Of a stretch of 42,661 bases of DNA, positions 3,153 to 19,366 are shown piece by piece. Source of the stretch: Mangrovicoccus sp. HB161399 (lineage in GTDB: Bacteria > Pseudomonadota > Alphaproteobacteria > Rhodobacterales > Rhodobacteraceae); assembly GCF_013184745.1 (NCBI RefSeq), contig NZ_JAATVU010000053.1, positions 1-42,661 on the forward strand, given 5' to 3'. Made by a program: the position numbers and the translations under genes. Each line of letters begins with the position of its first letter. Position 1 is the stretch's first letter. The notes under the pieces were generated by a model. The model did not search any database. It had not been told where the DNA came from and saw nothing but the letters and a program-made list of their open reading frames with translations.

Positions 3153-4193
3153 ATGAAGCTGAACCGCCGCCAGTTCACCGGCCTCGGCCTTGCCGCGCTT
3201 GCCGCCCCCGCAAGCATCATCCGTCCCGCCCATGCGCAACCGAAACCCGGAGACGAGCTGGTCGTCGGCATCTGGGGCGGCGCGCAGGAGAAGATCGTCA
3301 AGCAGTACATCGAGCCGCAGCTCGTCGAGAAATACGGCTGCAAGATCAGCTACGTGCTGGGCGGCACCACCGACCGCCGCGCCCGCGCCTATGCCGAGCG
3401 CGGCCGCCCGAGCTTCGACGTGCTCTACCTCAACATCTACGAAAGCCGCCAGGCGGTGGCCGACGGCGTGACCCAGGCGCCGACCGCGGCCGTGGAACGC
3501 TTCGACCAGCTCTATCCGCTGGCGCAGAAGGGCGGCTACGGCGTCGCGTTCAACCCCTGCACCGTGGTCTATGACGGCACTGCTGCCAAGACGCCGGTCA
3601 AGTCCTGGAAGGACATGTGGAACCCGGAATGGAAAGGCCGCATCGCCTGGCCGAACGGCCTGGGCGCAGAGGGCATCTCGGCGCTGATGATGACCGCCAA
3701 GTCCTTCGGCTACGACATCACAGAGTTCGACAAGGTCCTCGAGAAGGTCGCCGAGCTGAAGCCCTTCGCCGGCATCCAGTCCTCGCAGGCGCAGCTCTAC
3801 GACATGTTCGACCAGGATGTGGCCGACCTGTCGGTGGAATTCGCCTCCTTCACCCGGAAATACGCCGAGACCCGCAACCCCGACTGCGTCATCGCCGAGC
3901 CCGAGGAAGGCATGGCCGTGACCATGAACGTCGCCTGCATCACCGAAGGCACCAAGAACCAGAAGCTGGCCGAGGAATGGATCAACCTGCACCTCTCGCC
4001 CGAGGTGATGATCGCCTATGCCCGCGAGGTCTACTACTCGCCGACCGTCAAGGACGTGGAAATGCCGGACGACGTCAAGGGCAAGGTCATCACCGGCGGC
4101 CAGGTCAACGATCTCGTCGATTTCGACTGGGACTACATCAACGCCCACCGCGCCGAGTGGCAGGCCAAGTTCGACCGGGTGCTTGCCGGATGA
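3153..4193 (+). CDS. Periplasmic binding protein of a polyamine-type ABC importer, Tat-exported
   Basis: The 346-residue product begins with a twin-arginine signal (RRQFTGLG at 5-12), a hydrophobic stretch, and a probable cleavage site after AHA at 28. The mature part resembles PotD/PotF-type binding proteins (family 1 extracellular solute-binding, SBP_bac_8-like), with the early strand ELVVGIWGGAQE and a hinge-spanning two-lobe layout. It starts 30 bp after the ATPase gene with AGGAGA upstream, and its stop codon overlaps the start of the permease gene by four bases (ATGA). Export in folded form by Tat is common for this subfamily in alphaproteobacteria. Substrate unknown; putrescine- or spermidine-like molecules are the default guess. 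Confidence 0.9.
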   Translation: MKLNRRQFTGLGLAALAAPASIIRPAHAQPKPGDELVVGIWGGAQEKIVKQYIEPQLVEKYGCKISYVLGGTTDRRARAYAERGRPSFDVLYLNIYESRQAVADGVTQAPTAAVERFDQLYPLAQKGGYGVAFNPCTVVYDGTAAKTPVKSWKDMWNPEWKGRIAWPNGLGAEGISALMMTAKSFGYDITEFDKVLEKVAELKPFAGIQSSQAQLYDMFDQDVADLSVEFASFTRKYAETRNPDCVIAEPEEGMAVTMNVACITEGTKNQKLAEEWINLHLSPEVMIAYAREVYYSPTVKDVEMPDDVKGKVITGGQVNDLVDFDWDYINAHRAEWQAKFDRVLAG

Positions 4194-5933: not shown

Positions 5934-6758
5934 TCAGGCGAGGAAGACCTTGCGCAGCATGTTGAGCGCGACAAGGATCAGGAACACCGCGAAGACCCGC
6001 TTCAAGGGCTTCGGATCGAGCGAGTGAGCCAGCTTCACGCCCAGGGGCGCGGTCAGCAGCGTCATCGCGATCACGATCAGGAAGGCCGGGATGTTCACCG
6101 CGCCGAGCGTGAAGGGCGGCCGCGTCGCCGGGTCGATGCCCACGGTCAGGAAGCCGATGGTCGAGGGCGCGGCGATCAGCACGCCGAAACCCGCCGCCGT
6201 GGCCACCGCGCGGTGGATCGGAACGGCATGGAGGCTCATCAGCGGCACGCCGAAGCTGCCGCCGCCGATCCCCATCAGCACCGACAGGAAGCCCACGACC
6301 GGCGAATAGACCGCGCGCTTGACCCCCTCCGGCATCGCCTCGGCCAGCCGCCAGTGCTGCTTGCCGAGCCCCATGTAGAGGCCGATCACCAGCGCCAGTC
6401 CGCCGAAGATCGCCTGAAGCACGATCGAGCGCAGGCTCGCCGCCACCAGCACGCCGACGATGGCGCCGATGACGATGCCGGGCGCCCAGCCCTTGAGGAT
6501 CTCCCAGTCGACAGCGCCCTTCTTGTTGTGGCTCATGACCGAGCGCACCGAGGTGACGACGATCGTGGCCAGCGACGTGGCGAGGCAGACCTGCATCAGC
6601 TGCGGGCCGCCATAGCCCAGCGTCGAGAAGGCGTAGAAGAAGGCGGGCACCAGAACGATGCCGCCGCCGACGCCGAGAAGGCCGGCGAGCACGCCGGCAA
6701 AGGCGCCGATGAAGGCCAGCAGCGCCAGCATGAGAAGGAGGAGGGACGGGTCGGACAT
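5934..6758 (-). CDS. TauE/SafE family sulfite or organic-anion exporter
   Basis: This 274-residue integral membrane protein has two homologous halves of about four helices each, as expected for the TauE/SafE (DUF81) family. Each half carries the glycine-rich signature: GLLGVGGGIVLVPA near residue 26 and GIGGGSFGVPL near residue 164. Members export sulfite, sulfoacetate or other small anions from the cytoplasm, often as the last step of sulfonate breakdown. Here it follows the GntR gene by 18 bp on the same strand, so both probably form one transcript and the regulator likely controls the exporter. No sulfonate-degrading enzyme is recognisable nearby, so the exported anion is unknown. Confidence 0.88.
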   Translation of the reverse strand: MSDPSLLLLMLALLAFIGAFAGVLAGLLGVGGGIVLVPAFFYAFSTLGYGGPQLMQVCLATSLATIVVTSVRSVMSHNKKGAVDWEILKGWAPGIVIGAIVGVLVAASLRSIVLQAIFGGLALVIGLYMGLGKQHWRLAEAMPEGVKRAVYSPVVGFLSVLMGIGGGSFGVPLMSLHAVPIHRAVATAAGFGVLIAAPSTIGFLTVGIDPATRPPFTLGAVNIPAFLIVIAMTLLTAPLGVKLAHSLDPKPLKRVFAVFLILVALNMLRKVFLA

Positions 6759-6776: not shown

Positions 6777-7406
6777 CTACTCGGGAAGGGGGCGCGACAG
6801 CGCCAGGAAGGCACCCGCGACATGGGCCTGCATCGCCGCGCGGGCGGCATCGGCATCGCGGGCAAGGATCGCGGCGGCGATGGCGCGGTGCTCGGCGCGG
6901 GACAGATCCGTGCGCCCGGCATCGCGGGAGAAGTTGAGCGCCCGCCAGGGCAGGGTCTGCAGCTCGAGCCGCGCCAGCGTCTCCGCCAGCACCGGGCTCT
7001 TCGCGCCCTCGCGGATCGCGGCGTGGAACCGCAGGTTATGCGCGGAATACTCCGCAGGCGGCAGCCCTGCCCCTGCGGCCAGCAGCACCTCCAGCGCCGC
7101 CCGTTCCACGGCGCTCATGCGGTGCGCGGCCAGCGCGGCAATCGCGCCCTCGATCTCGCCCACGGCCTCGAAGACGCCGGCCATCTCTGCCGGGTCCGGC
7201 CTGCGGATGGCGAAGGCGCGGCGCGTGCCGCGCTCGGCCAGCCCGTCCCGGGCCAGCTCCTGCAGGGCCTCGCGCACCGGCGTGCGCGACACGCCGAATT
7301 CCTCGGCCAGCGCGGTCTCGGCCAGAGGCGTGCCGGGCGGCAGGCTGCCCCCGGCGATCCGCGCGATCAGCGCGGCATGGATCTTGGCGGCGGACCCTTC
7401 GGACAT
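6777..7406 (-). CDS. GntR-family regulator, FadR/FCD subfamily
   Basis: The 209-residue product has an N-terminal winged helix (about 5-70; recognition part FGVSRTPVREALQEL at 37-51) and an all-helical C-terminal FCD ligand domain with histidines (NLRFHAAI, EHRAI, AHVAG) that usually bind a metal and a carboxylate ligand. I prefer the ATG at 7406 because AGGGAG lies seven bases upstream. An upstream in-frame ATG at 7442 has no ribosome-binding site and sits inside the likely operator. FCD regulators usually respond to small organic acids. It probably represses itself and the downstream TauE/SafE exporter. Confidence 0.88.
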   Translation of the reverse strand: MSEGSAAKIHAALIARIAGGSLPPGTPLAETALAEEFGVSRTPVREALQELARDGLAERGTRRAFAIRRPDPAEMAGVFEAVGEIEGAIAALAAHRMSAVERAALEVLLAAGAGLPPAEYSAHNLRFHAAIREGAKSPVLAETLARLELQTLPWRALNFSRDAGRTDLSRAEHRAIAAAILARDADAARAAMQAHVAGAFLALSRPLPE

Positions 7407-7434
7407 GGCGGCGCTCCCTGGACTCGCGCCACTT

Positions 7435-7461
7435 GTATACATGTCAGCATTACATGTACAC
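7435..7461. promoter_or_regulatory. Probable operator of the GntR regulator
   Basis: Two 10-base arms, GTATACATGT (7435-7444) and ACATGTACAC (7452-7461), form an inverted repeat with one mismatch and a seven-base spacer. Each arm also contains its own short palindrome (TGTATACA; TACATGTA). FadR/FCD-type GntR proteins commonly bind GTnTACnnnAC-like palindromes of this style. The site lies 29-55 bp upstream of the chosen GntR start codon and just beyond the 3' end of the LysR gene at 7473, so it fits autoregulation. The assignment is by pattern only. Confidence 0.55.
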
Positions 7462-7472
7462 CCTCTTGCACA

Positions 7473-8366
7473 TCAGCCCCCGGCGAGCATCGGCTTCAGC
7501 GTCTCGAGATAGACATTGGCCATGGCATTGGCATAGCGCTCGGAGCCGACCACCATCAGCTTCTGCGTGCGGTCGGCGAATTCCTGGACGGGCACCAGCA
7601 CCAGCCGGCCCGCGGCCACGTCGCGTTCGACATCGAAGCGGGTGAGGAAGGTGATGCCGTCGCTGCCGGAGGCCATCTCGCGCATCACCTCGATGGAGTT
7701 CGTCTCGGCGAGGATCTCGGGACTGCTGCGCAGGGGGGCGAGCCAATGGTCGAGATAGGGCCGGATCACCATCGACTGGTCGGCAAGGATCAGCGGATAG
7801 GCGATGCAGTCGCTCAGCCGTAGGCTGGAGCGCGCCGCCAGCGGATGGCCGGCCGCCATCACGGCGCCCAGCTGCGCCAGCGAGGTGGTGTGGATTCTCA
7901 GCCCGAACCGTTCCGGAAAATCGAAGCCGATTCCGAAATCGGCGTCTCCTGAGGCAACGCTCTCCATGATCGCCTCTCCGGTAGGCAGAAGCTGAACCTT
8001 CAGCGAAACGCGGGGATTCGCCTTCCGGAAGGCAGCAAGGCTGCGGGGGATCACGTTTCCGGCGAGGCCGCTCATGATCGCCAGCGAGACCTCGCCGCGG
8101 CGCAGCCCCTTCAGGTCCTCGATCTGCGCCAGCGTCCGGCTTTCCTCGCGCAGCGTCTCGCGGACATGCACCATCAGCAATTCGCCTGCGGCCGTGAGGG
8201 TCATGTCCCTGGCTCCCCTATGGAAAATCGGCGCACCGACCTGTTCCTCGAGGGTCTTGATCTGGCGGCTGATGGCCGAAGGTGCGACGTGGAGCTTCTC
8301 GGACGCGGCGCGGATCGAGCCGGAGCGGACCACCTCGTCGAGATAGCGCAGGATGCGTGCATGCAT
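7473..8366 (-). CDS. LysR-family regulator, divergent from the catabolic cluster
   Basis: This 297-residue protein has a LysR helix-turn-helix at about 16-40 (GSIRAASEKLHVAPSAISRQI), the linker helix, and a two-lobe effector-binding domain from about 90 (VSLAIMSGLAGNVIPRSL...). It is transcribed away from the plus-strand cluster that starts with the cupin gene, the classic arrangement for a LysR activator of a neighbouring catabolic operon. The 141-bp gap between the two start codons holds two CAAATTTG palindromes 21 bp apart. A related box occurs upstream of the second NMT1-type binding protein, so this regulator may control both units. Ligand unknown. Confidence 0.92.
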   Translation of the reverse strand: MHARILRYLDEVVRSGSIRAASEKLHVAPSAISRQIKTLEEQVGAPIFHRGARDMTLTAAGELLMVHVRETLREESRTLAQIEDLKGLRRGEVSLAIMSGLAGNVIPRSLAAFRKANPRVSLKVQLLPTGEAIMESVASGDADFGIGFDFPERFGLRIHTTSLAQLGAVMAAGHPLAARSSLRLSDCIAYPLILADQSMVIRPYLDHWLAPLRSSPEILAETNSIEVMREMASGSDGITFLTRFDVERDVAAGRLVLVPVQEFADRTQKLMVVGSERYANAMANVYLETLKPMLAGG

Positions 8367-8379
8367 GGGACTGTATTGC

Positions 8380-8416
8380 CAAATTTGGAACGTTACCGTG
8401 CAAATTTGATGCTTTT
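8380..8416. promoter_or_regulatory. Paired CAAATTTG palindromes in the LysR/cupin divergent promoter
   Basis: The octamer CAAATTTG occurs at 8380-8387 (within CCAAATTTGG) and at 8401-8408, spaced 21 bp centre to centre, i.e. two helical turns on one DNA face. The second is followed by ATGCTTTT (8409-8416). The same string with one change occurs at 27079-27094 upstream of another binding-protein gene. Two phased sites between divergent regulator and target genes fit a LysR tetramer binding region. Confidence 0.6.
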
Positions 8417-8507
8417 ATCTCACGCGTCAATCGTCTTCCTTGATCGCAAGAGGGGCGGCGCCTGCAGAAGCCGCGCCCCGCAGATGACGACCTACGGAGC
8501 AGAGCGG

Positions 8508-8939
8508 ATGCAGAAATCCTTTACGTACGAGCAACTTCGAAAGGCCGAGGTGTTCAAGATCGCTCCGGACGACACGAATTACTTCGCGATCCTCTTCGAC
8601 CCGGCGAATTCCTCCACCAATTCCATCTTCGTGATCGAGATTTTCACCGTCGGCGGCGCCACGCCTCCGAACAGCCATTCGACAGCGCATGAATTCTTCT
8701 ACGTGCTGCACGGCGAAGGAATTGCCTCTTCCGACGGCGACGAGCTGCCGATCGCCAAGGGCGACGCGCTGCTGCTCGAACCGGGCTCGGTCCACATCGT
8801 GAAGAACACCGGCGCGTCGAAGCTCTATACCCTGACCGTCATGGTCCCGAACCAGGAGTTTTCCGAGCTGATCCGCGCGGGCGAGCGCGTCGCGCTGGAC
8901 GACGAGGATCTGGCGATCCTGACCGGGAAGGCAGCGTGA
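8508..8939 (+). CDS. Cupin-domain protein, first gene of the catabolic cluster
   Basis: The 143-residue protein is a single cupin barrel. The first cupin motif is visible in the middle (HSTAHEFFYVLHGEG), with metal-ligand-type histidines and a glutamate. The second follows around KGDALLLEPGSVHIVKN, ending with a conserved histidine. ATG 8508 is preferred because GGAG lies eight bases upstream; an in-frame ATG at 8484 lacks one. Small cupins in catabolic operons act as isomerases, hydrolases such as ureidoglycolate lyase, dioxygenases, or ligand sensors. Which applies here is unknown. The stop codon overlaps the next start (TGATG), indicating translational coupling to the amidohydrolase. Confidence 0.85.
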   Translation: MQKSFTYEQLRKAEVFKIAPDDTNYFAILFDPANSSTNSIFVIEIFTVGGATPPNSHSTAHEFFYVLHGEGIASSDGDELPIAKGDALLLEPGSVHIVKNTGASKLYTLTVMVPNQEFSELIRAGERVALDDEDLAILTGKAA

Positions 8940-9730
8940 TGGACGGCATGACGGATCGCGACCTGCTCCCGCTCGGGGCCACTCCGCGCAACGCCTGGCA
9001 GGTCAGCGCCGCCGAGGTCAGCCTGGTGCGCGCCCGCGAGGAAGCCCGCCCGGTGACGCTTTCGGACCGCGGCCGCAAGGTCGTGATCGACGCCCGCCGC
9101 ACCGCCATCATCGTCGTCGACATGCAGAACGACTTCTGCCACCCCGAGGGCTGGCTGGCCTCGATCGGGGTCGATGTCTCCCCCTGCCGCGCGCCGATCG
9201 GCCCCCTGCAGTCCCTGCTGCCGACCCTGCGCGCCCATGACCTGCCGGTGATCTGGCTGAACTGGGGCAACCGCCCGGACCGCGCCAACCTGCCGCCCTC
9301 CGTGCTGCATGTCTACGATCCGGACGGCCGGTCGACCGGCATCGGCAAGCCGCTTCCCGGCAACGGCGCGCATGTGCTGGAGGAAGGCAGCTGGGCTGCC
9401 GCCGTGGTCGACGAGCTGGCCCCCGAAGACGGCGACATCGCGGTCTCGAAATACCGCATGACCGGCTTCCAGGACACCGAGCTGGAAACGGTCCTGCGCA
9501 ATCTCGACGTCACCACCGTGCTCTTTGCCGGCGTGAATGCCGACCAGTGCGTGCTGAACACGCTGACCGACGCGGTCGCCAAGGGCTTCGACGCGGTGCT
9601 GCTGGAGGACTGCTCGGCCACCTCCTCGCCGTCCTTCTGCATGGAGGCGACGCTCTACAACGTGCGGCAATGCTACGGCTTCGTCTGCGACGGCGCCGAG
9701 CTGAAGACGCAGCTGGAGGCACAGGCATGA
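8939..9730 (+). CDS. Isochorismatase-like cysteine hydrolase (amidohydrolase)
   Basis: This 263-residue enzyme has the complete catalytic triad of the cysteine-hydrolase branch of the isochorismatase fold: D61 in VVDMQNDFC, K171 in SKYRMTGF and C204 in GVNADQCV. Relatives hydrolyse C-N bonds in N-carbamoylsarcosine, biuret, ureidoacrylate (RutB) and nicotinamide. The roughly 50-residue extension before the core is typical of RutB- and biuret-hydrolase-like members rather than nicotinamidases. It overlaps the cupin gene by one base and the AtzH-like gene by four, so it is part of the operon. The context of amidase, creatininase-fold and AtzH-like proteins supports hydrolysis of a ureido or amide intermediate; the substrate is not determinable. 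Confidence 0.9.
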   Translation: MDGMTDRDLLPLGATPRNAWQVSAAEVSLVRAREEARPVTLSDRGRKVVIDARRTAIIVVDMQNDFCHPEGWLASIGVDVSPCRAPIGPLQSLLPTLRAHDLPVIWLNWGNRPDRANLPPSVLHVYDPDGRSTGIGKPLPGNGAHVLEEGSWAAAVVDELAPEDGDIAVSKYRMTGFQDTELETVLRNLDVTTVLFAGVNADQCVLNTLTDAVAKGFDAVLLEDCSATSSPSFCMEATLYNVRQCYGFVCDGAELKTQLEAQA

Positions 9731-10116
9731 CCCCCGAGCTCAACCTGCCCGGACCGGTGGCCGAACTGACCGCCGCCTGCGACGCCTACGAGGCCGCGCT
9801 GATGACCAACGACCTCGACGCGATGGACGCGCTCTTCTGGGAAAGCCCGCTGACTTTGCGCTACGGCGTGGGCGAGAACCTCTACGGCATCGACGAGATC
9901 CGCGACTTCCGCAAGGCGCGCCCCGGCGGCTCGCCGCAGCGACAGGTGATCCGGCGCGAGATCGTCACCTACGGCGAGGCGATGGGCACCTGCAACCTGG
10001 AGTTCCGCCGCGAGGGCGGCACGAAGACCGGGCGGCAGAGCCAGACCTGGCTGAAGACGCCCGACGGCTGGAAGGTCGTCGCGGCGCATGTCTCGCTGAT
10101 GGCGGAGACCCACTGA
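9727..10116 (+). CDS. AtzH/HpxZ-like protein (DUF3225, NTF2-like fold)
   Basis: The 129-residue protein matches the AtzH/HpxZ family, with the characteristic block FWESPLTLRYG, ENLYGIDEIR and FRKARP between residues 38 and 70, and a C-terminal WKVVAAHVS strand. In known systems AtzH acts in the cyanuric-acid/carboxybiuret route and HpxZ belongs to oxalurate catabolism. Both accompany an AtzE/HpxY-type amidase. A GatA-type amidase is present at the end of this operon (18209-19366), which strengthens the parallel. No AtzG/HpxX-like small subunit is visible. Start and stop overlap both neighbours. It probably handles a labile N-carboxy or ureido intermediate. Confidence 0.82.
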   Translation: MTPELNLPGPVAELTAACDAYEAALMTNDLDAMDALFWESPLTLRYGVGENLYGIDEIRDFRKARPGGSPQRQVIRREIVTYGEAMGTCNLEFRREGGTKTGRQSQTWLKTPDGWKVVAAHVSLMAETH

Positions 10117-11504
10117 TGCCGCTCGACGCGTTCCTCTCCGCGCTCGGCCCGATCGAGGCCACCACCGAGCCGAAGCTGGTCAAGGCGAAGAGCCGCGACT
10201 GGCACTTCATCTCGCCGCTCCTGTCGAAGACGCTGGACGGTCTCGTGGCCGATGCCGTGGTGACGCCGAAAAGCGCCGAAGAGGTCCGCGCCGTCGCCGC
10301 CGCGGCCTATGCCCATGATGTCGCGCTGACGCCGCGCGGCACCGGCACGGCGAATTACGGCCAGTCGGTTCCGCTCCATGGCGGAGCGATGCTGGACCTG
10401 TCGAAGCTGTCCGGCGTGATCGCGGTCGGCAGCGGCTTCATCCGCGCCTATGCCGGGACGCGCATCGCCGACCTGGAATCCGCCGCCGCCGCCACCGGGC
10501 AGGAGCTGCGCTTCTTCCCGACCACCAAGAAGCAGGCCACGATCGGCGGCTTCGTGACGGGGGGCACCGGCGGGGTCGGATCGATCAATTACGGCGTGCT
10601 GCGCGATCACGGCAATGTCCGCGCCGCCCGCGTCGTCACCGTCGAGGAGACCCCGCGCGAGATCGAGCTGACCGGCATGGAAACCCGCATCGTCCAGCAC
10701 AGCTATGGCACGCTCGGCATCGTGACCGAGGTTGAGATGCCGCTGGCGCCGCTGCGCGACTGGGAGGAATGCCTGGTCGCCCTGCCCGACTATCCGTCCG
10801 CCGTGCGCCTCGCCGTCGCCATCGGCAGGGAGCCGGGGCTGGAGAAGAAGCTCGCCTCCGCCTATGAATGGCCGGTCGGCGAGTGGCTGAAGCCCTTCGC
10901 GCCCTTCGTGCCGGAAGGCCAGTCCATCGTGATCGCGATGATCGAGGCTGCCTCGATGCCGCTTTTCCGCCAGATGGTGGCGGAGGCCGGCGGCGAGATC
11001 GTCGCGGGCGGCCCCGAGGGACACGCCCCCTATGGCCGCCCGATCTGGGAATTCGCTTTCGGCCACACGACGCTGCAGGCTCAGAAGACCCGCCCCGACA
11101 TCACCGAGATCGAGGGGTTCTTCACCGCCCCCGACCTCGCCGCGCGGATCCTCGAGGTGCATGACGCGATCAGCGCCACCGGCCCGATGCGGATCGAGAT
11201 CCGCCGCTGGGGCGGCGATCTGGTCGGCTCGGGCTCGACCTTCGTCACCTTCACCGACGAGGCGGCGGTGAACGAGGTGGTCACCGCGATGCGCTCGATG
11301 GGGCTGAAGGTCGCCAACCCGCATGCCTCCAATGTGCGCGGCGTCGGCAAGAAGACCATCGGACCCGGCGAAATCGCCTTCAAGCGCGCGGTCGATCCCA
11401 AGGGCCTGCTGAACCCCGGCCGCTTCGAGGCCGAGGGCGCCGCGGACACGGTGATCGACCGCCATCTCGACACCGACGGCTGGCTCGACCGCCAGGCCGG
11501 CTGA
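10116..11504 (+). CDS. FAD-linked oxidoreductase (VAO/PCMH, GlcD-like), paralogue 1
   Basis: The 462-residue enzyme has an N-terminal FAD-binding type-4 domain (about 40-210) and a C-terminal cap ending in the family-typical DPKGLLNPGRFE. The flavin loop reads PRGTGTANYGQS in place of the usual GGGTGLSGG, and no histidine for covalent FAD attachment is seen there. It shares ANYGQSVPL, SNVR-VGKK and many other blocks with the protein at 13439-14851, so the two arose by duplication. Such proteins oxidise hydroxy acids, amines or alcohols, passing electrons to quinone, cytochrome or oxygen. No signal peptide is evident. Its start overlaps the AtzH-like stop by one base. Substrate unknown. Confidence 0.9.
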   Translation: MPLDAFLSALGPIEATTEPKLVKAKSRDWHFISPLLSKTLDGLVADAVVTPKSAEEVRAVAAAAYAHDVALTPRGTGTANYGQSVPLHGGAMLDLSKLSGVIAVGSGFIRAYAGTRIADLESAAAATGQELRFFPTTKKQATIGGFVTGGTGGVGSINYGVLRDHGNVRAARVVTVEETPREIELTGMETRIVQHSYGTLGIVTEVEMPLAPLRDWEECLVALPDYPSAVRLAVAIGREPGLEKKLASAYEWPVGEWLKPFAPFVPEGQSIVIAMIEAASMPLFRQMVAEAGGEIVAGGPEGHAPYGRPIWEFAFGHTTLQAQKTRPDITEIEGFFTAPDLAARILEVHDAISATGPMRIEIRRWGGDLVGSGSTFVTFTDEAAVNEVVTAMRSMGLKVANPHASNVRGVGKKTIGPGEIAFKRAVDPKGLLNPGRFEAEGAADTVIDRHLDTDGWLDRQAG

Positions 11505-11561
11505 CATGACAGCCCGCAAAGGGCGCAGCGGGGCGACCCGCATCCAACAGGAGCTACCTCG

Positions 11562-12527
11562 ATGATCAAGACCGTTTCCGCCGCCCTGGTTGCCGCGCTG
11601 GCAGGCAGCACCGCGATGGCCGCCGACCTGGTGCCGATGACCTTCCAGATGAGCTGGAAGGCGCAGGCCGAACAGGGCGGCTACTGGCTGGCCGCTGCCG
11701 AAGGGTATTACGAGGAGTGCGGGCTGGACGTCACCGTCCGCTCGGGCGGGCCGGGCATCGACACCACCCAACTGCTGGTGACCGGCGCGGTCGAGGCGAT
11801 CCTCGTCAGCCAGAATGACGGCGCGATGCGTATGAACCAGGCGGGCTTTCCGTCGAAGGCCGTGATGGCCGCCTTCCAGAAGCTGCCGACCATCCTGCTC
11901 TATCACGACGAAGCGGGCATCTCCGAGCCCGCCGACATGGCCGGCAAGCCGGTGATGATCTCCCAGGGCAACCGCCAGACCTTCTGGCCCTTCATGAAAG
12001 ACAAGTGGGGCCTCTCGGACGACCAGCTGCGCAGCTACAACGGCCAGATCGCGGTCTGGATGCAGAACGGGGACTCGATCCAGCAGGGCATCGTCACCAA
12101 CGAACCCTTCCGCATCAAGGAGCAGGCGGGGTTCGACGCCTCCTACTTCCTGCTCGCCGATTACGGCTACGACCCCTACACCTCCGTCGTCGTCGTGCCG
12201 CAGACCCTGATCGACGGCCATCCCGAGCAGGTGCAGTGCCTGGTCGACGGCTCGGTCAAGGGCTGGACCGAGTTCATGGCCGACCCCGAGGCCGGCTTCG
12301 CCGCCGTGCAGGAGGCCAACCCGGAAAACTCCGACGAGCTGATGGCCTATTCCTACGGCAAGATGAAGGAGCTGAACCTGATCGAGAACGGCGACACCGC
12401 CGCCCATGGCATCGGCGCGATGACCGATGAACGCTGGGCCGCGCATTTCGGCGAGCTGGTCAAGTACGGCCAGTTCCCGGCGGATTTCGACTACAAGTCC
12501 GCATACACGCTCCAGTTCCTGGACTGA
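11562..12527 (+). CDS. NMT1/THI5-type periplasmic binding protein, paralogue 1
   Basis: This 321-residue protein starts with a Sec signal peptide (cleavage likely after AMA at 19-21). Its mature part belongs to the NMT1/SsuA family of ABC importer receptors for sulfonates, pyrimidine precursors, riboflavin and similar organic molecules. Recognisable blocks include FQMSWKAQAEQGGYWLAA, GYYEECGLDV and LVTGAVEAILVSQNDG. A GGAG ribosome site precedes the start. The permease and ATPase that would complete the importer lie 4 kb downstream in the same operon. A close paralogue sits at 27318-28301, and the shared FQMSWKAQAE motif implies related ligands, probably a ring compound. Confidence 0.92.
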   Translation: MIKTVSAALVAALAGSTAMAADLVPMTFQMSWKAQAEQGGYWLAAAEGYYEECGLDVTVRSGGPGIDTTQLLVTGAVEAILVSQNDGAMRMNQAGFPSKAVMAAFQKLPTILLYHDEAGISEPADMAGKPVMISQGNRQTFWPFMKDKWGLSDDQLRSYNGQIAVWMQNGDSIQQGIVTNEPFRIKEQAGFDASYFLLADYGYDPYTSVVVVPQTLIDGHPEQVQCLVDGSVKGWTEFMADPEAGFAAVQEANPENSDELMAYSYGKMKELNLIENGDTAAHGIGAMTDERWAAHFGELVKYGQFPADFDYKSAYTLQFLD

Positions 12528-12558
12528 CCGCTCCCCCCTCTCTTCGCGGACAGTCCTT

Positions 12559-12593
12559 GCTGCCGGGGCGGATGCCCCTTGCGTCCCGGCAGC
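12559..12593 (+). other. Stem-loop in the mRNA after the binding-protein gene
   Basis: Arms 12559-12567 and 12585-12593 are perfectly complementary over nine bases, in the 88-bp gap between the binding-protein and creatininase-family genes. There is no T-run. Hairpins directly after binding-protein genes often protect the upstream message and raise its expression over downstream genes, which fits the high stoichiometry expected of the receptor. Confidence 0.5.
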
Positions 12594-12615
12594 CCCTTAT
12601 CACGAAAGACCTCCC

Positions 12616-13428
12616 ATGACGCTGAAATCCCACTGGTGGACCGATCTCACCGCGCTCGACTTCAAGACCCTCGACATGTCGGAGATGGTCGCCGTCTTCC
12701 CGGTCGGCGCGACCGAGCAGCACGGCCCGCACCTGCCGGTGAAGGTGGACTATTCCATCGCCCAGTCCATCTGCGAGGACGCGGTGGCGAAGATGGCCCC
12801 CGGCTTCCCGGCCCTCGTCCTGCCGGTCAGCGCCGTGGGCAAGTCCGACGAGCACCTGCGCTATCCCGGCACGCTGACCATCCCCGGCCCGCTGCTGGCA
12901 GACTACTGGTTCGAGATCGCCAAGTCCGTGCACCGCGCGGGCTGCCGCCGCATCCTGTTCCTCAACGCCCATGGCGGCCAGCCCCAGGTGATGGAAATGG
13001 TCTGCCGCCGCCTGCGCATCGAGCTGGGCATGTTCGCCGTGTCCTCGATGTGGTCGCGCTTCACCGAGATGGCCGACCAGTTCTCGGAGTTCGAGCGCAC
13101 CCACGGCATCCATGCCGGCGAGGTGGAGACCAGCGTCATGCTGCATCTCTTCCCCGAGCTCGTGGACATGGAGCATGCCCGGAATTTCGAGCCGCTCTCC
13201 GTCGCGCTCGCGCAGAAGGGCGGCATGCTGACCCCCGAGGGCGCGGTCGGCTTCGGCTGGCAGGCGCAGGATCTGCATCCTTCGGGCGCGGCGGGCGATG
13301 CGGCCTCGGCTGATGCCGACCGCGGCCGGATCGTCTTCGACCGCGCCGTCGAGGGGCTGATCAAGCTCATCGGCGAGATCTCCGCCTTCGACCTTGCCGA
13401 ACTGGAAAAATCGCCCTCCTACGCGTGA
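12616..13428 (+). CDS. Creatininase-family amidohydrolase
   Basis: The 270-residue enzyme carries the family metal-site motifs: E34 and H36 in GATEQHGPHLP, D45 in VKVD, NAHGG at 117-121, and HAGEVETS at 166-173. E34, H36 and D45 fall at the numbering of the metal ligands of Pseudomonas creatininase. The glutamate used there at position 122 is a glutamine here, as the common NGHGGN version of the family also lacks it. Members open cyclic amides or cleave formamides (creatininase, FAPy deformylase, MftE peptidase). True creatinine use is not supported, because no creatinase or sarcosine oxidase is nearby. A ring-opening or deformylating step on the imported compound is plausible. Confidence 0.88.
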   Translation: MTLKSHWWTDLTALDFKTLDMSEMVAVFPVGATEQHGPHLPVKVDYSIAQSICEDAVAKMAPGFPALVLPVSAVGKSDEHLRYPGTLTIPGPLLADYWFEIAKSVHRAGCRRILFLNAHGGQPQVMEMVCRRLRIELGMFAVSSMWSRFTEMADQFSEFERTHGIHAGEVETSVMLHLFPELVDMEHARNFEPLSVALAQKGGMLTPEGAVGFGWQAQDLHPSGAAGDAASADADRGRIVFDRAVEGLIKLIGEISAFDLAELEKSPSYA

Positions 13429-13438
13429 GGCCTGCCCA

Positions 13439-14851
13439 ATGAACGACATGACCCGCCCCGCCTATCCGCTCGAAGCCTACTCGGCCGAGATCGACGGCAT
13501 CGAGCACACCACCGACCCCAAACGCATCCGCGTGAAGAGCCGGGACCGCTATGCCGTCAGCCCCATCCTGAAGGAGGCGCTCGCCGGAAAGACCGCCGAT
13601 ATCGTGGTCTCGCCGAAGACGGATGACGAACTCAGGCGGGTCCTGTCGGCTGCCGTGCGCCACCGCATCCCGGTGACGGTGCGCGCGGCAGGCTCGGCGA
13701 ATTACGGCCAGTCGGTGCCCCTGAAGGGCGGGATCGTCCTCGACTGCCTCGGGCTGACCGGCATCGTCGAGCTGAAGGACGACCGCGTGCGGGTCCGCGG
13801 CGGCATGATCTGCGCCGAGCTCGACGCGGAGCTCAGGAAGCACGGCAAGGAGCTGCGCTTTCCCCCGACCACCGCGCGCATCGCCACGGTCGCGGGCCAT
13901 TTCGCCGGCGGCCAGGGCGGTCCCGGCTCCACCGTCTACGGCACATGGCGCGATCCGGGCAACGTGATCTCCTGCACCGTGATGACCATGGAGGAGGAAC
14001 CGCGGCTCCTGGAACTCCGCGGTCTCGACGCGCAATTCGCGCACCACACCTACGGCGCCACCGGCATCATCACCGAGATGGAGCTGCCCCTCGCGCCCGC
14101 TTGGGCCTGGAACGAGGCGATCGTCACCTTCGACGACTACATGGACGCGGTGCGCTTCGGCGTGACGCTGGCCGACAGCGCCGGGATCACGCGGAAATTC
14201 GTCTCGGTCCATGAATGGCCGACGCCCAGCTTCGTGAAGCCGTTCCAGAAGATCGTGCCCGAGGGCAAGTCGATCCTGATGACGATGATCGCCGACCAGA
14301 GCTGGGAGAGCTTCGCCCAGATGGCCGAGCGCGCGGGCGGCACGATCGTCACCCAATCGCGCGAGGGCGAGGGCCCCTACGGCCAGCCGCTCTGGGAATT
14401 CATCTTCGGCCACATGCTGTTCCAGATCCAGAAGTCCCATCCCGAACGCTCGGTGATCGAGGGCTTCTTCCGCGCCGACGACCTTGTCGGCCTGATCGAC
14501 CGGGTGCACGAGAAGGTGAAGCATTACGGGCCGCTGCGGATGGAGCTGCTGCGCATCGGCGGGCAGATCGTCGGCTCGGGCTCGCCCTATTTCGTCTTCG
14601 AATCCCCCGAGCAGATGGCGCAGATGGTGCGCGACATGCAGGAGGCCGGCGCGGTCGTGTCGAACTCGCATACCTCCAACGTGCGCGCGGTCGGCAAGAA
14701 GGAGATCACCGATGCAGATCTCGCCTTCAAGCGCATGGTCGACCCGCATGGCCTGCTGAACCCCGGACGGTTCGAGGTGGACGAGGCGGATGACGCCGCC
14801 GTCTCCGCCGTCGAGCTGCCCACCGACAAATGGGACCGGAGGCTCGGATGA
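13439..14851 (+). CDS. FAD-linked oxidoreductase (VAO/PCMH, GlcD-like), paralogue 2
   Basis: This 470-residue protein is the second flavoenzyme of the operon and is clearly homologous to the one at 10116-11504 over its full length: KSRDRYAVSPIL, ANYGQSVPLKGG, EGFF, SNVRAVGKK, DPHGLLNPGRFE. It keeps the FAD type-4 domain and cap, and again lacks an obvious covalent-FAD histidine in the flavin loop (RAAGSANYGQS). ATG 13439 has GAGG upstream, and its stop overlaps the next start by four bases. The pair could act on successive intermediates or as a heteromeric oxidase, as in multi-subunit glycolate-oxidase-like complexes. The latter is speculation. Confidence 0.9.
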   Translation: MNDMTRPAYPLEAYSAEIDGIEHTTDPKRIRVKSRDRYAVSPILKEALAGKTADIVVSPKTDDELRRVLSAAVRHRIPVTVRAAGSANYGQSVPLKGGIVLDCLGLTGIVELKDDRVRVRGGMICAELDAELRKHGKELRFPPTTARIATVAGHFAGGQGGPGSTVYGTWRDPGNVISCTVMTMEEEPRLLELRGLDAQFAHHTYGATGIITEMELPLAPAWAWNEAIVTFDDYMDAVRFGVTLADSAGITRKFVSVHEWPTPSFVKPFQKIVPEGKSILMTMIADQSWESFAQMAERAGGTIVTQSREGEGPYGQPLWEFIFGHMLFQIQKSHPERSVIEGFFRADDLVGLIDRVHEKVKHYGPLRMELLRIGGQIVGSGSPYFVFESPEQMAQMVRDMQEAGAVVSNSHTSNVRAVGKKEITDADLAFKRMVDPHGLLNPGRFEVDEADDAAVSAVELPTDKWDRRLG

Positions 14852-16536
14852 CCCTCGACCTGACCCCCGCCTTCGACCCGCACATGGCCCCGGCAGAGCT
14901 GCCCCCCGCCGCCGGCGTGCAGCCGGTCGAGACGCTGTCGATGGCCACCGCCGACGGCACGCGCCTGGATGCCGACATATGGCGCCCCGAGGGCGACGGC
15001 CCCTGGCCGGTGCTGCTGCAGCGCCAGGCCTACGGGCGGCGCATCGGCTGCACCATCTGCTATGCCCATCCCGCCTGGTACGCGGCGCAGGGCTACATGG
15101 TCGTGGTGCAGGACGTGCGCGGCCGGGGCACCTCCGAAGGACGTTTCTGGCCCGGCCAGCACGAGGCGGCGGACGGGGCCGAGGCGGTCGAATGGGCGGC
15201 ACGGCTCCCCGGCTCGGACGGGCGCGTGGCAATGTACGGGTTTTCCTACCAGGCCTATGACCAGCTGCTGGCCGCCACGGCCGACAGCCCGTCGCTCGCC
15301 GCGCTGATCCCGGCCATGGGGCCGTGGGATCCGGCCCGGACCTGGATCTTCGGAGGCGGCGCCTTCAAGCTGGGCCAGATGGCGGGCTGGGGCACGCAGA
15401 TCACCGTCGAGGGCGCCCGCCGCGCCGGAGACGCCGCCGCCTATGCCCGCCTGAAGGCCGGGGCAGCGAGCCTGTTTTCTGGCGAGGTGCCCGGCCACCC
15501 AGCAGAGCTGATGGCTTCGGGCGAGTTCGGCCACTACCCCGGCTGGGTGTCGCGCGGCGCGGACGATCCCTACTGGCAATCGATCTCTCCCGCCGCCTCG
15601 CTGGCACGGCTGCGCGAGCGCAGGCTGCCGATGTTCTTCATCGGCGGCTGGTTCGACGGGCACCTGCATTCGACGCTGGAAGCCTTCGCGGCGCTCGACC
15701 GCGCGGACGACCCGACGATGAGGCTGATGGTCGGCCCCTGGATCCACTTCCCCTGGGAACGCCGCGCCGCGGGCGTCGATTTCGGCCCCGAGGCGGCCGC
15801 CGATACCGACCGCGCGCAGGTGGCCTTCCTCGATGCAGTGCTGAAGGGCAAGGGCACGCTGGCAGCGGAGGACCGCGTCCAGCTCTTCGATCTCGGGCAG
15901 CGGACCTGGCGCAGCCACGGCGCCATGCCGGAAACCGCCGCCCCCGCCTTCCTGGCGGGCTCGGGCCGCGCCGCCACCCGGATCGGCGACGGCACCCTTG
16001 CCGATGGGCCCGCCCCGGGCACCGAGCTGATGGTCCACGACCCCTGGCGCGCCGCGCCCTCCGCCGGTCCAGGCGCGGGTCCGGTGGACCGCCGCGCGAC
16101 TGACGAGCGCTCCGACGTGATGACCTTCGCCAGCCTGCCGCAGGCCGCCCCGGTCACCGTCGAGGGCCCCCTGCGGCTGCATCTGGACATCTCCGCCGAC
16201 CGGCCGAGCTTCGACGTGTCGGCCACGCTGTCGATCCTACGCGCCGACGGCCGCGCCCATGCCATCGCCGAGAGCTACCTGCATCTGCGCGCCCGCCCGG
16301 AGGGGCCGGTCTCGCTCGATCTGGGCGCGACCTGCGTGACCCTCGCCCCCGGCGAAGCGCTGCGCCTGTCGATCGCCGCCGCCGCCTTCCCCGCCCATGC
16401 CGTCAATCCCGGCACCGGAGCGGATCCCGTCGCCGCGCCGCTTGCCTCGGCGCTGATCACCACATTGCATCTGGCCCTGGGAGAAGACAGCCGCCTCGAC
16501 CTGCCGGTCGCCGACGGCGTGCTGCAGCTCCGCTGA
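14848..16536 (+). CDS. CocE/NonD-family alpha/beta hydrolase
   Basis: The 562-residue protein has the X-Pro dipeptidyl-peptidase/CocE architecture: an alpha/beta-hydrolase core plus a C-terminal jelly-roll from about residue 380. The triad is visible as S133 in YGFSYQ, D270 in GGWFDGH and H300 in VGPWIHF. The oxyanion-region motif DVRGRGTSEG occurs at 89-98. Members include cocaine esterase, glutaryl-7-ACA acylase and alpha-amino-acid ester hydrolases, so it cleaves esters or amides with an acyl group. There is no signal peptide, so it acts on imported substrate. GGAGG precedes ATG 14848. With benABCD next door, release of a benzoyl or other aromatic acyl group is an attractive but unproven idea. 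Confidence 0.9.
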   Translation: MTLDLTPAFDPHMAPAELPPAAGVQPVETLSMATADGTRLDADIWRPEGDGPWPVLLQRQAYGRRIGCTICYAHPAWYAAQGYMVVVQDVRGRGTSEGRFWPGQHEAADGAEAVEWAARLPGSDGRVAMYGFSYQAYDQLLAATADSPSLAALIPAMGPWDPARTWIFGGGAFKLGQMAGWGTQITVEGARRAGDAAAYARLKAGAASLFSGEVPGHPAELMASGEFGHYPGWVSRGADDPYWQSISPAASLARLRERRLPMFFIGGWFDGHLHSTLEAFAALDRADDPTMRLMVGPWIHFPWERRAAGVDFGPEAAADTDRAQVAFLDAVLKGKGTLAAEDRVQLFDLGQRTWRSHGAMPETAAPAFLAGSGRAATRIGDGTLADGPAPGTELMVHDPWRAAPSAGPGAGPVDRRATDERSDVMTFASLPQAAPVTVEGPLRLHLDISADRPSFDVSATLSILRADGRAHAIAESYLHLRARPEGPVSLDLGATCVTLAPGEALRLSIAAAAFPAHAVNPGTGADPVAAPLASALITTLHLALGEDSRLDLPVADGVLQLR

Positions 16537-17414
16537 TGCAAGAGCCGAGGAGACCCGGTTTGGCCGATGAAAGCGTTCCGCTTGCCCACCCCGAAACCAA
16601 ACGCCTCGCCGAGCGGCCCAGCCGCCTGACGACAGTCCTGCGCGAGACCGGCCCGACCGTCGCGGCCGGCCTCGCCTTCATCGCTCTCTGGGAACTCGCG
16701 GTGCACACTTTCGGCATCTCGAAATTCGTGCTGCCGCCGCCCTCGATGATCGTCGTCTCGATGATCGCCGACTTCCCCTACCTGATGCATGCGCTGGCCT
16801 TCACCGCCGGGATCACCATCGCGGCCTTCGCCGCCGCCGTGGTGTCGGGCATTCTCGGCGGGCTGCTGCTGACGCTGCACCGCGATGTCGAGCGGATGCT
16901 CTGGCCCTATGCGATCGCGCTGCAGGTGACGCCGATGGTGGCCATCGCGCCCTTGGTGATCATCTGGGTCGGGCTCGACCGGGTCTGGCTGGGGCTGATG
17001 ATCCTCGCCTGGCTGGTCGCCTTCTTCCCGATGCTGGCCAATACCGTGCAGGGGCTGAAATCTGCGGACCGCGGGCTGCAGGACGTGATGACGCTCTACC
17101 AGGCGTCGCGCTGGCAGCGGTTCCGCCACCTGCAGCTGCCCGCCGCCCTGCCCTATATCCTGACCGGCGCGCGGATCTCGTCCTCGCTTGCCGTGATCGG
17201 CGGCGTGGTCGCGGAATTCGTCGCGGGCTCCGGCGCCTCCACCGGACTGGCCTGGGTGATCGTGGAATCGGGCACCATGCTCGACGTGCCGCGGATGTTC
17301 GCCGCGCTTTTCATCCTGTCGGTCTTCGGCCTCGCCATCTGGTGGCTGACCTCGATGGTGCAGGCGCGGCTTCTGAGCCGCTGGCACGAAAGCGAAATGG
17401 GCGGAGAGCGCTGA
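16536..17414 (+). CDS. ABC importer permease (SsuC/TauC/ThiX-like)
   Basis: The 292-residue membrane protein has about six helices and the EAA-type cytoplasmic loop (YQASRWQRFRHLQLPAALPYI, in part) for contact with the ATPase. This is the layout of permeases paired with NMT1-type receptors. The ATG at 16536 overlaps the preceding stop but has no good ribosome site. An in-frame TTG at 16560 follows GAGGAG at ideal spacing and may be the true start, removing eight residues. It works with the ATPase immediately downstream and with the binding protein at 11562-12527 and/or 27318-28301. Confidence 0.9.
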   Translation: MQEPRRPGLADESVPLAHPETKRLAERPSRLTTVLRETGPTVAAGLAFIALWELAVHTFGISKFVLPPPSMIVVSMIADFPYLMHALAFTAGITIAAFAAAVVSGILGGLLLTLHRDVERMLWPYAIALQVTPMVAIAPLVIIWVGLDRVWLGLMILAWLVAFFPMLANTVQGLKSADRGLQDVMTLYQASRWQRFRHLQLPAALPYILTGARISSSLAVIGGVVAEFVAGSGASTGLAWVIVESGTMLDVPRMFAALFILSVFGLAIWWLTSMVQARLLSRWHESEMGGER

Positions 17415-17415
17415 G

Positions 17416-18207
17416 ATGACCGACATGAGCCCCGCGACGCAGCCCGTCATGCGGATGCAGAACCTCGACAAGGTCTATCCCAACGGCACGGTCGCGCTGA
17501 AGAACCTGTTTCTCGACGTCCATCCCGGCGAGTTCGTCTCGCTCCTTGGCCCCTCGGGCTGCGGCAAGTCCACCGCGCTGAAAATCGCGGCCGGGCTGGC
17601 CGAGCATTCGGCGGGCCGCATCCAGCGCCCGGGCGAGGACGAGGTCAAGGGCATCCGCGCCAAGGCAGGCGATATCGGCTTCGTCTTCCAGGAGCCGAAC
17701 CTGATGCCCTGGCTGCCGGTCTTCGACAACGTGTTCCTGCCGCTGAAGCTGGCCGGGATGTCCCGCGCCGACGCCGCGCCGCAGGTCGAGGCGATCCTCG
17801 AAACCGTCGGGCTGGCGGGTTTCGCCGCCAGCTATCCGCGCGAGCTGTCGGGCGGCATGAAGATGCGCGTCTCGATCTCCCGCGCGCTGGTGACCAAGCC
17901 GAAGCTCCTCTTGATGGACGAGCCTTTCGCCGCGCTCGACGAGATCACCCGCAACAAGATCTCGCAGGACCTGCTGCAGCTGTGGCAGGCGACCGGATCG
18001 ACGGTGATCTTCGTGACCCATTCGGTGTTCGAGAGCGTCTTCCTGTCGAACCGCATCGTCGTCATGGCGGCGCGTCCGGGCCGGATCATCGGCGAGATCG
18101 GGGTGGACGCGCCCTATCCGCGCGATGCAAGCTTCCGCCTGAGCCCGGATTACGCGGCGCATTGCCGCGAAGTGAGCGCGCTGCTGACGCGCGCCATGGA
18201 GAGTTGA
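17416..18207 (+). CDS. ABC importer ATP-binding protein (SsuB/TauB-like)
   Basis: This 263-residue ATPase has Walker A LGPSGCGKST, Q-loop VFQEPNL, a signature LSGGMKMRVSISRAL, Walker B LLLMDEPFAALD and switch histidine in FVTHSVFES. The short protein without a TOBE domain, and the LSGGMKMR form of the signature, are typical of the nitrate/sulfonate/taurine (NitT/TauT) branch. Its start follows the permease stop after a single base and the amidase gene follows at once, so transport and hydrolysis genes are co-expressed. It is the only such ATPase in the window, so both NMT1-type receptors probably share it. Confidence 0.93.
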   Translation: MTDMSPATQPVMRMQNLDKVYPNGTVALKNLFLDVHPGEFVSLLGPSGCGKSTALKIAAGLAEHSAGRIQRPGEDEVKGIRAKAGDIGFVFQEPNLMPWLPVFDNVFLPLKLAGMSRADAAPQVEAILETVGLAGFAASYPRELSGGMKMRVSISRALVTKPKLLLMDEPFAALDEITRNKISQDLLQLWQATGSTVIFVTHSVFESVFLSNRIVVMAARPGRIIGEIGVDAPYPRDASFRLSPDYAAHCREVSALLTRAMES

Positions 18208-18208
18208 G

Positions 18209-19366
18209 ATGAGTATCGATCCGTTCGTGACGACCTTTGCCGAGGATGCCTTCCCCGAGCGGGACGGCCCGCTGTCGGGTCTGCGCCTCGCGGTGAAGGA
18301 CAATCTCGACATCGCGGGCCATGTCACCGGCTCCGGCCATCCCGGCTGGGCCTCGATCCGGCAGCCAGCCGCGGAGACCGCGCCGGTGGTGCGGATGCTG
18401 GCCGCGGCCGGGGCGCAGATCGTGGGCAAGACCCACATGGACGAGCTGGCCTATTCGCTGATGGGCGAGAACGCGCATTACGGCACGCCGCTGAACCCTG
18501 CGGCCCCCGGCCGCGTGCCGGGCGGTTCCTCCTCCGGCTCGGCCTCGGCCGTGGCGCAGGGGCTGGCCGATCTCGGCATCGGCACGGATACCGGCGGCTC
18601 GGTGCGCCTGCCTGCCTCCTTCTGCGGGCTCTGGGGCTGGCGCCCGACCCACGGGCTGCTGCCGCATGGCGGCATGCAGGCGCTGGCGGCCAGCTACGAC
18701 GTGCCGGGGCTCTTCGCCCGCGATGCCGAGACCCTGCTGCTCGCCGCCGCGATCCTCGCGCCGGATGCCGACCTGGCCGCGCCGCGCTATCTCGCCCCGT
18801 CCGATCTCTGGGCGCAGGTGCCCGAGGCGACCGCGGCCGCGCTGCGCCCGTTCGTGCCCGAGGCGGAGACCGCGCCGCTTTTCGACCCCGAGACGCTGGA
18901 GCGGCTGCAGCCGGTCTTCCGCGTGGCGCAGGGCCGGGAAATCGCCGCGACCTTCGGCGATTGGATCCGCGAAACCGCGCCGGAGTTCGGCCCCGGCGTG
19001 CGCGAACGCTTCGACGGCGCCATGTCGCTGAGTGCGCAGGAGATCGCCGAAGCCGAGGCTGCCCGCGCCGCGATCCGCGCCCATGTGCGCGGCGTGCTGG
19101 GCAAGGACGGCATCCTCGTCATCCCGACCGCGCCGGGGGCCGCGCCGCTGCTGAACACTTCGGGCGAGGAAATGGACCGCTACCGCAATGCCGCGATCCG
19201 CATGCTCAGCATCGCCGGCCATGCCGGGCTGCCGCAGATCACCATGCCGCTGGCGGTGATCGACGGTGCGCCGCTGGGCCTGTCGCTGGTCGGCCCGGCA
19301 GGCAGCGACCTGGCGATGATCGCGCTGGCCGCGGAACGCTTCGCCGCCGCCCCGGCCCTGGCCTGA
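18209..19366 (+). CDS. Amidase-signature enzyme (GatA/AtzE-like)
   Basis: The 385-residue enzyme has the Ser-cisSer-Lys triad of the amidase-signature family: K30 in LAVKDN, S107 in GGSSSGSA and nucleophile S131 in GTDTGGSVR. It is compact compared with the 450-480 residues of GatA or AtzE and resembles the roughly 390-residue AtzF-like or indole-acetamide-type amidases. Together with the AtzH-like and isochorismatase-like proteins it suggests stepwise hydrolysis of amide or ureido bonds. No GatB/GatC or AtzG partner is present, so it is not the tRNA amidotransferase subunit. It is the last gene of the plus-strand run; a hairpin follows. Confidence 0.92.
   Translation: MSIDPFVTTFAEDAFPERDGPLSGLRLAVKDNLDIAGHVTGSGHPGWASIRQPAAETAPVVRMLAAAGAQIVGKTHMDELAYSLMGENAHYGTPLNPAAPGRVPGGSSSGSASAVAQGLADLGIGTDTGGSVRLPASFCGLWGWRPTHGLLPHGGMQALAASYDVPGLFARDAETLLLAAAILAPDADLAAPRYLAPSDLWAQVPEATAAALRPFVPEAETAPLFDPETLERLQPVFRVAQGREIAATFGDWIRETAPEFGPGVRERFDGAMSLSAQEIAEAEAARAAIRAHVRGVLGKDGILVIPTAPGAAPLLNTSGEEMDRYRNAAIRMLSIAGHAGLPQITMPLAVIDGAPLGLSLVGPAGSDLAMIALAAERFAAAPALA

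Follow-up and report, generated by a model that had tools for sequence, protein, structure and literature searches.

The 42,661-nucleotide contig NZ_JAATVU010000053.1 (our C273) of Mangrovicoccus sp. HB161399, whose genome spans 7.18 Mb, carries between positions 7473 and 19366 one divergent LysR gene and eleven plus-strand genes; we call this whole stretch the window, and all positions refer to it unless another contig is named. An earlier reading made from the sequence alone (the sequence-only reading) took these genes for a coherent catabolic operon serving an imported nitrogenous compound, and our analysis supports it: the block is kept in four named genomes, answering the question of clustering elsewhere on which that reading hung, and its two flavin adenine dinucleotide (FAD) proteins match PDB 6v42, entitled a flavin oxygenase of folate catabolism. 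We tentatively propose that the operon is horizontally exchanged and that it imports and degrades an N-rich, pteridine-like heterocycle for nitrogen, perhaps carbon, ending in an oxalurate-type fragment. With similar caution, we suggest that it is a rare branch of a modular cluster family related to folate/pterin catabolism and mostly alphaproteobacterial among the loci examined.

A literature search, judged by titles and abstract openings, found no matching characterized operon, as the sequence-only reading had supposed; as far as that search shows, the operon is uncharacterized, and we would provisionally describe it as a nitrogen-heterocycle catabolic operon related to folate/pterin catabolism. 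The further claim that no pathway could be named holds for characterized operons but not for the FAD proteins, which have a named relative in 6v42. To our knowledge, little has been charted of how pteridines and folates are broken down in nature, and most AtzH/HpxZ proteins, small cupins, and creatininase-like and CocE-like enzymes have no assigned role; the conserved gene sets described here offer a testable module tying these proteins to one chemistry, with Mangrovicoccus algicola and Martelella limonii as cultured carriers.

Gene content and close versions of the operon

All twelve genes were found where the sequence-only reading had placed them (Table 1). Their Pfam domains are LysR, Cupin_2, Isochorismatase, AtzH-like, FAD_binding_4 (twice), NMT1, Creatininase, Peptidase_S15 with PepX_C (CocE), BPD_transp_1, ABC_tran, and Amidase. 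The NMT1-type importer, previously called "most of" one, is in fact complete, with binding protein, permease, and ATPase. To describe the genes as mostly overlapping was too strong: the junctions are tight, but only 4 of 10 overlap (by 1 to 4 bases), the other six being two 1-base gaps, gaps of 8 and 10 bases, and gaps of 57 and 88 bases. The motif GGAGCAG ahead of the cupin start (8508) and the start itself are kept in an alignment of five loci. We found no sigma-70-like promoter sites, and terminator-like sites numbered 4, compared with 4.1 in shuffles; we infer that the LysR protein controls the operon.

A scan with FAD2 of one genome per species (84,980 species), aimed at close relatives only and perhaps leaving out the window's own record, yielded four loci (L009 to L012), from Poseidonocella sp. 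HB161398, M. algicola (L010, also fetched as L093), M. ximenensis (L011), and Martelella limonii, which belongs to another order. Poseidonocella and M. algicola carry all twelve genes, identically ordered. M. ximenensis shares this arrangement as far as CocE, within which the match ends (407 of 562 residues); a permease, an ATPase, and an amidase were looked for without success in the following 8.8 kb of the stretch. The assembly may be at fault, because its RpoB also matches in two pieces. Martelella keeps the order except that a third FAD gene stands in place of the binding protein gene; a binding protein gene (50% identity) lies beyond lysR.

Horizontal transfer of the operon is likely, because most of its proteins are at least as similar between the window's genome and Martelella as RpoB is. 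RpoB is about 98% identical to that of the window's genome in Poseidonocella and the two Mangrovicoccus species, and 72% identical in Martelella. Eleven Martelella operon proteins (the binding protein aside) are 68 to 85% identical to the window's: eight lie clearly above the RpoB value, LysR and CocE about equal it, and the amidase (68%) falls below it, with operon-protein and RpoB identities computed by different programs. Among 394 genomes drawn evenly from the window's own family, 132 had a FAD relative at an E value of 1e-40 or better (stretches of seven were fetched, the window's own genome and M. algicola among them); above 50% identity, such a relative was confined to the genome that holds the window and to one congener. 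The operon is probably mobile. We considered a recent plasmid source and rejected it: the best FAD2 matches in the plasmid collection were below 60% identity in 166 of 166 records, 3 of which were opened.

FAD proteins and hydrolases

FAD1 and FAD2, rightly called paralogs before (46% identical to each other), match 6v42 over their full length (E values of 7e-96 and 2e-91; 38 to 40% identity over about 440 residues). This entry is the nearest solved relative of both, and a structure search labels it a flavin oxygenase with a part in folate catabolism. EncM is a flavoprotein with the FAD_binding_4 fold. Its oxygenating species is described as a flavin N5-oxide (PMC7662398).

We fetched eight loci whose FAD protein is 56 to 64% identical to 6v42 (L014, L015, L017, L019 to L022, and L026). 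In seven (L014 from Rhizobium, L015 from Agrobacterium, L017, and L019 to L022), genes for a CodA-type deaminase and a flavin reductase adjoin the FAD gene; all seven also have an NMT1-type binding protein and ATPase, and six of seven each have a permease match and a creatininase match. These clusters of 6v42/6v43 relatives resemble the operon in full-length FAD homology, NMT1-type importer, and creatininase-like gene. They differ from it in that the operon lacks both a deaminase and a flavin reductase, has two FAD copies belonging to a sister clade, and adds isochorismatase, cupin, AtzH, CocE, and amidase genes. A CodA-type gene also stands next to the FAD gene in three loci of the window's own FAD clade (L013, L016, and L027). 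NCBIfam names two of the CodA-type proteins cytosine deaminase. Pterin deaminase, described from Agrobacterium (Arad3529) and Variovorax, takes the amino group off folate (PMC9513972).

One of the seven loci, L017, lies on another contig of the same genome (G000:C3, positions 6210 to 13596) and comprises an NMT1-type importer, a CodA-type deaminase, a FAD protein (56% identical to 6v42), two flavin reductases, and a creatininase, with a Rid gene alongside; it is possibly a folate/pterin cluster. Its two reductase-like genes, outside the operon, are a candidate flavin reductase supply. L023, which has a FAD2 relative (54%), was rejected as a version of the operon, its neighbors being RimK-like and AstE/AspA-like.

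The claim of four hydrolase folds with intact catalytic residues is borne out, in that the motifs are invariant in aligned relatives. The residues that we take to be catalytic are D58/K168/C201 in the isochorismatase (34 of 34 alignment rows), E34/H36/D45/H119/E171 in the creatininase-like protein (18 of 18), S133/D270/H300 in CocE (11 of 11), and K30/S107/S131 in the amidase (16 of 16). Family scores place the proteins less narrowly. The best PDB match of the isochorismatase is RutB, and its nearest named PDB kin act on ureides, but it scores below the NCBIfam equivalog cutoffs for RutB (122.3 versus 377.95) and biuret hydrolase (123.8 versus 370). The creatininase-like protein has the Pfam family match and the motif residues but falls below the NCBIfam creatininase (EC 3.5.2.10) equivalog cutoff (89 versus 235 bits). 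CocE, with its S-D-H residues, passes the CocE/NonD subfamily cutoff (399.7 versus 66.3) and matches cocaine esterase (E value of 4e-54). The amidase is below the NCBIfam AtzE cutoff (192.8 versus 461 bits).

The operon's AtzH gene encodes the sole AtzH-like match in the genome and belongs to the AtzH/HpxZ family (PF11533, 180.8 bits versus 27; NCBIfam HpxZ equivalog, 169.5 versus 135). The AtzH pocket is described as Tyr22, Arg46, Arg63, Arg66, Arg73, Phe94, Arg96, Gln106, and Gln108 (PMC6219798); all nine are present here as Y21, R45, R62, R65, R72, F93, R95, Q104, and Q106, numbered by counting on the alignment. Like AtzGEH (cyanurate) and HpxXYZ (oxalurate), the operon thus has an AtzH/HpxZ protein with an intact pocket beside C-N hydrolases; it differs from them in that no AtzG was found and the amidase is of the PRK08310 type instead of AtzE. 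The absence of AtzG and AtzD from the set, asserted in the sequence-only reading, agrees with our searches: PF13318 (AtzG) had no match in the genome, with control genomes silent too, though the model detects AtzG in the distant locus L048; and AtzD, AtzE, and AtzF had no match above cutoff among the 12 operon proteins, which were the only proteins of the genome searched for them.

Modular family of distant loci and the proposed pathway

Relatives of the isochorismatase were sought in 385 genomes of the class (15 matched, the window's own included), in 198 genomes of one further family (8 matched), and in the plasmid collection (266 records, 6 opened), giving 29 more distant loci (15 + 8 + 6). 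The cupin was present in 12 of the 29; in all 16 cupin-bearing loci, the four close ones counted, it shares the strand of the isochorismatase match and is separated from it by 3 to 96 bases. Of the 12 distant loci with a linked cupin, FAD occurs in 6, creatininase in 7, CocE in 5, amidase in 4, AtzH in 2, CodA-type deaminase in 3, flavin reductase in 7, and NMT1 binding protein in 4; at least two further partners (ggt counted) occur in 9 of 12, and none in L044. The 17 loci without cupin have no FAD or creatininase, CocE in 1, amidase in 8, AtzH in 1, CodA-type deaminase in 2 (one merely 27% identical), and flavin reductase in 1; here partner absence says little for L037 and L039, on contigs shorter than 10 kb, and the amidase and ggt matches of L032 are the queries themselves. 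None of 20 control stretches (20 kb, placed by hand in genomes carrying relatives) held any of 12 gene types at an E value limit of 1e-20 (1e-10 for cupin and AtzH) and 60% coverage. On close-locus conservation, the partner counts, and the empty controls, we rejected a chance neighborhood.

The core recurs with varied company. LysR relatives (52 to 54%) stand next to it in L028, L029, L031, L035, and L036, and importers are of the NMT1, Pot (L025, L031, and L044), or BMP type (L029). In L048, L043, and L025, deaminase, flavin reductase, and FAD genes cluster with isochorismatase, cupin, CocE, and creatininase relatives, with amidase added in L048 and L043 and AtzH in L048. L048 (positions 2451 to 19473 of its stretch) is the fullest version seen: ggt, AtzG, AtzE, AtzH, isochorismatase, cupin, two FAD, creatininase, CocE, CodA-type deaminase, flavin reductase, and two 2-oxoglutarate oxygenase genes. 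The sequence-only reading set the operon apart from oxalurate chemistry; its gene set does differ, but the AtzG, AtzE, AtzH, and ggt-family genes of this far relative make the link closer. L012 likewise has a ggt-family gene, after the amidase. HpxW belongs to the ggt family. It is described as an oxamate amidohydrolase (PMC5270733), and the order ggt-atzG-atzE-atzH, which is that of L048, is described for many enterobacterial clusters (PMC6219798).

In the isochorismatase tree, many of whose other forks are weak, 12 of the 17 cupin-less loci form one supported group, 10 of them beside BMP-type importers. Such sister isochorismatases next to BMP-type importers, often with amidase and sometimes with ggt or AtzH (L032 to L034, L037 to L041, L047, and L050), look like a separate ureide/triuret-type system.

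These comparisons bear on two other explanations. The imported compound might instead be purine-derived, either a ureide or a hydantoin-like molecule (allantoin, oxalurate, or a methylated relative), with the FAD proteins acting as dehydrogenases of hydroxy intermediates (as from ureidoglycolate to oxalurate) ahead of the hydrolases. The HpxZ score above cutoff, the ggt-atzG-atzE-atzH genes of L048, the BMP-type importers beside sister isochorismatases, and a FAD fold that also resembles D-hydroxyacid dehydrogenases speak for such a ureide operon. We nevertheless consider it unlikely: 6v42, and not a hydroxyacid dehydrogenase, is by a wide margin the best match of the FAD proteins, no allantoinase- or ureidoglycolate-type family occurs among the operon proteins, and creatininase and CocE are left unexplained. 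A pathway of the s-triazine, biuret, or triuret type (cyanurate family) is very improbable. It could draw on the complete AtzH pocket and an isochorismatase related to biuret hydrolase, and triuret clusters are described as likewise pairing isochorismatase-like hydrolases with BMP-type importers (PMC12625717); yet the AtzD-, AtzE-, AtzF-, and AtzG-type matches are missing as described above, the isochorismatase is below the biuret hydrolase cutoff, and the pathway as described has no place for two FAD proteins.

For a pteridine-like ring, the substrate, step order, oxygenase activity, and regulation that we propose would be as follows. The NMT1-type importer, probably with the Pot-type importer described below, would take up a pteridine-like or similar ring, which we assume already bears oxo groups because the operon has no deaminase. 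FAD1 and FAD2 would act as flavin oxygenases that oxygenate and then open the ring; the creatininase-like enzyme would open a cyclic amide, the isochorismatase-like enzyme would strip a ureido or carbamoyl group, and CocE would cleave an acyl or amide bond. Finally, the amidase and AtzH would turn an oxalurate- or N-carboxy-type fragment into ammonia, CO2, and a small acid; the AtzH pocket, together with the ggt/atz genes of L048 and L012, suggests this last step. A separate cluster in the same genome may supply reduced flavin and, where required, deamination. More doubtfully, the operon could define an undescribed pathway for a pteridine-type or other fused nitrogen heterocycle in which two FAD_binding_4 proteins of a new clade are ring-opening oxygenases, an AtzH/HpxZ-amidase pair finishes an oxalurate-type fragment, and a shared isochorismatase-cupin-creatininase-CocE-amidase-AtzH back end is coupled to varied oxygenases and importers.

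The Rut uracil pathway (RutA, RutB) shares the logic of a flavin oxygenase followed by an isochorismatase-like ureido hydrolase, in logic and not in fold: the operon uses FAD_binding_4 proteins instead of RutA, and its isochorismatase is below the RutB cutoff. The RutA fold differs from FAD_binding_4. Compared by description only, the lumichrome (riboflavin) lum operon of Nocardioides shares stepwise hydrolysis of the pyrimidine part with urea removal and a cupin-annotated enzyme, but differs in its P450, xanthine-oxidase-type, and Rieske enzymes (PMC12746152).

Several observations weigh against the folate/pterin reading. The window's FAD proteins fall outside the 6v42 clade, forming a sister clade with a 100/100 split in a tree that warns of long branches and was built without the L011 pair and the L021 FAD protein. 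The PDB title is the sole source for the role of 6v42, and our literature search found no paper on it. L026 (56% identical to 6v42) had no deaminase or flavin reductase match in its 19 kb, nor did L023 and L024 of the window's FAD clade; neither gene was found among the operon genes or in the fetched stretches of all four close versions. The PDB matches of the NMT1 binding protein are weak, and our searches found neither AtzE nor AtzG here as a partner of AtzH. Oxygenases vary across the family, being FAD proteins of two clades, VanA-type Rieske (L043), or 2-oxoglutarate type (L048). The Roseomonas mucosa plasmid cluster L031 has isochorismatase, cupin, creatininase, amidase, AtzH (HpxZ), CocE, LysR, and Pot-type importer relatives in common with the window, but no FAD or NMT1-type binding protein match within 12 kb; thus, the core can act where no nearby oxygenase of this kind is required. 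We found no described function for L031.

L031 also bears on a third explanation, mainly hydrolytic breakdown of an acylated or ester- or amide-decorated plant or algal compound (alkaloid-like). In that case, CocE would start by removing the acyl group, and the FAD proteins would belong to a side branch further along. The CocE match to cocaine esterase fits this, as do the L031 hydrolases with no FAD match nearby. The two FAD genes, though, are kept in all four close versions, with a third in Martelella, and CocE occurs in only 5 of the 12 more distant cupin-linked loci; we regard the explanation as improbable.

Importers and flanking genes

The boundaries 7473 to 19366 are right for the operon itself, but a Pot/PhnT-type importer upstream probably belongs to the same system as a second importer. 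Its proteins are 54, 58, and 51% identical to those of L031, and in L025 and L044, relatives of the L031 importer likewise adjoin the isochorismatase-cupin pair. The upstream importer flanks the operon in L009 and in M. algicola (L010/L093) and was not found in L011 or L012.

Table 1. Features of the operon and its upstream flank in the window
Feature	Positions	Strand	Basis and remarks
Pot/PhnT-type ATP-binding cassette (ABC) importer, probable second importer	1884..5878	+	ATPase 1884-3122, binding protein 3153-4193, permease region about 4217-5878
TauE/SafE-family membrane protein	5934..6758	-	Pfam; association uncertain
GntR/FCD regulator	6777..7442	-	Pfam; association uncertain
LysR-type regulator, divergent from operon	7473..8366	-	Pfam; divergent also in L009-L012
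Intergenic lysR-cupin, 141 bases, with conserved blocks	8367..8507		Five-locus alignment
Small single-domain cupin	8508..8939	+	Pfam; adjoins isochorismatase gene in 16 of 16 other cupin-bearing loci
Isochorismatase-like cysteine amidohydrolase, probable ureido/carbamoyl hydrolase	8948..9730	+	Pfam; nearest named PDB kin RutB and biuret hydrolase
AtzH/HpxZ protein with full AtzH pocket	9727..10116	+	Pfam, NCBIfam, pocket alignment
FAD_binding_4 flavoprotein 1 (FAD1), putative flavin oxygenase	10116..11504	+	Pfam, PDB match
NMT1-family substrate-binding protein	11562..12527	+	Pfam
Creatininase-family metal amidohydrolase	12616..13428	+	Pfam, NCBIfam
FAD_binding_4 flavoprotein 2 (FAD2), putative flavin oxygenase	13439..14851	+	Pfam, PDB match
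CocE/NonD-family serine hydrolase	14848..16536	+	Pfam, NCBIfam
ABC permease of NMT1-type importer	16536..17414	+	
ABC ATPase of NMT1-type importer	17416..18207	+	
Amidase-signature hydrolase, PRK08310 type, not AtzE	18209..19366	+	Pfam, NCBIfam

Between this importer and lysR, the TauE/SafE gene is present in L010 and was not found in L009, L011, or L012; the GntR/FCD gene is present in L010, partial in L011, and was not found in L009 or L012.

M. algicola (L093) has a CodA-type gene about 6.4 kb past lysR, upstream of its Pot-type importer. The window's genome has a second CodA-type deaminase gene at L082 (G000:C24, positions 6094 to 11162), with a LysR gene (40% identical to the product of the operon's lysR) and ABC genes, near a contig end; the M. 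algicola homologue of this deaminase (84%) is encoded by the CodA-type gene just mentioned. Given that arrangement, we considered a join of contig C24 to the start of the window, which is unproven.

Directly downstream of the operon, positions 19382 to 24513 encode a LysR protein, Rieske dioxygenase alpha and beta subunits, a reductase, and a short-chain dehydrogenase, a set that we take to resemble benzoate-type ring dihydroxylation; L009, L010, and L012 showed no such set beside the operon. Farther on, positions 27084 to 33133 hold genes for a second NMT1 binding protein, a VanA-type Rieske oxygenase, a PNPOx-like flavin protein, a LysR protein, and an OHCU decarboxylase (uric acid pathway), and are possibly another cluster for a nitrogen compound.

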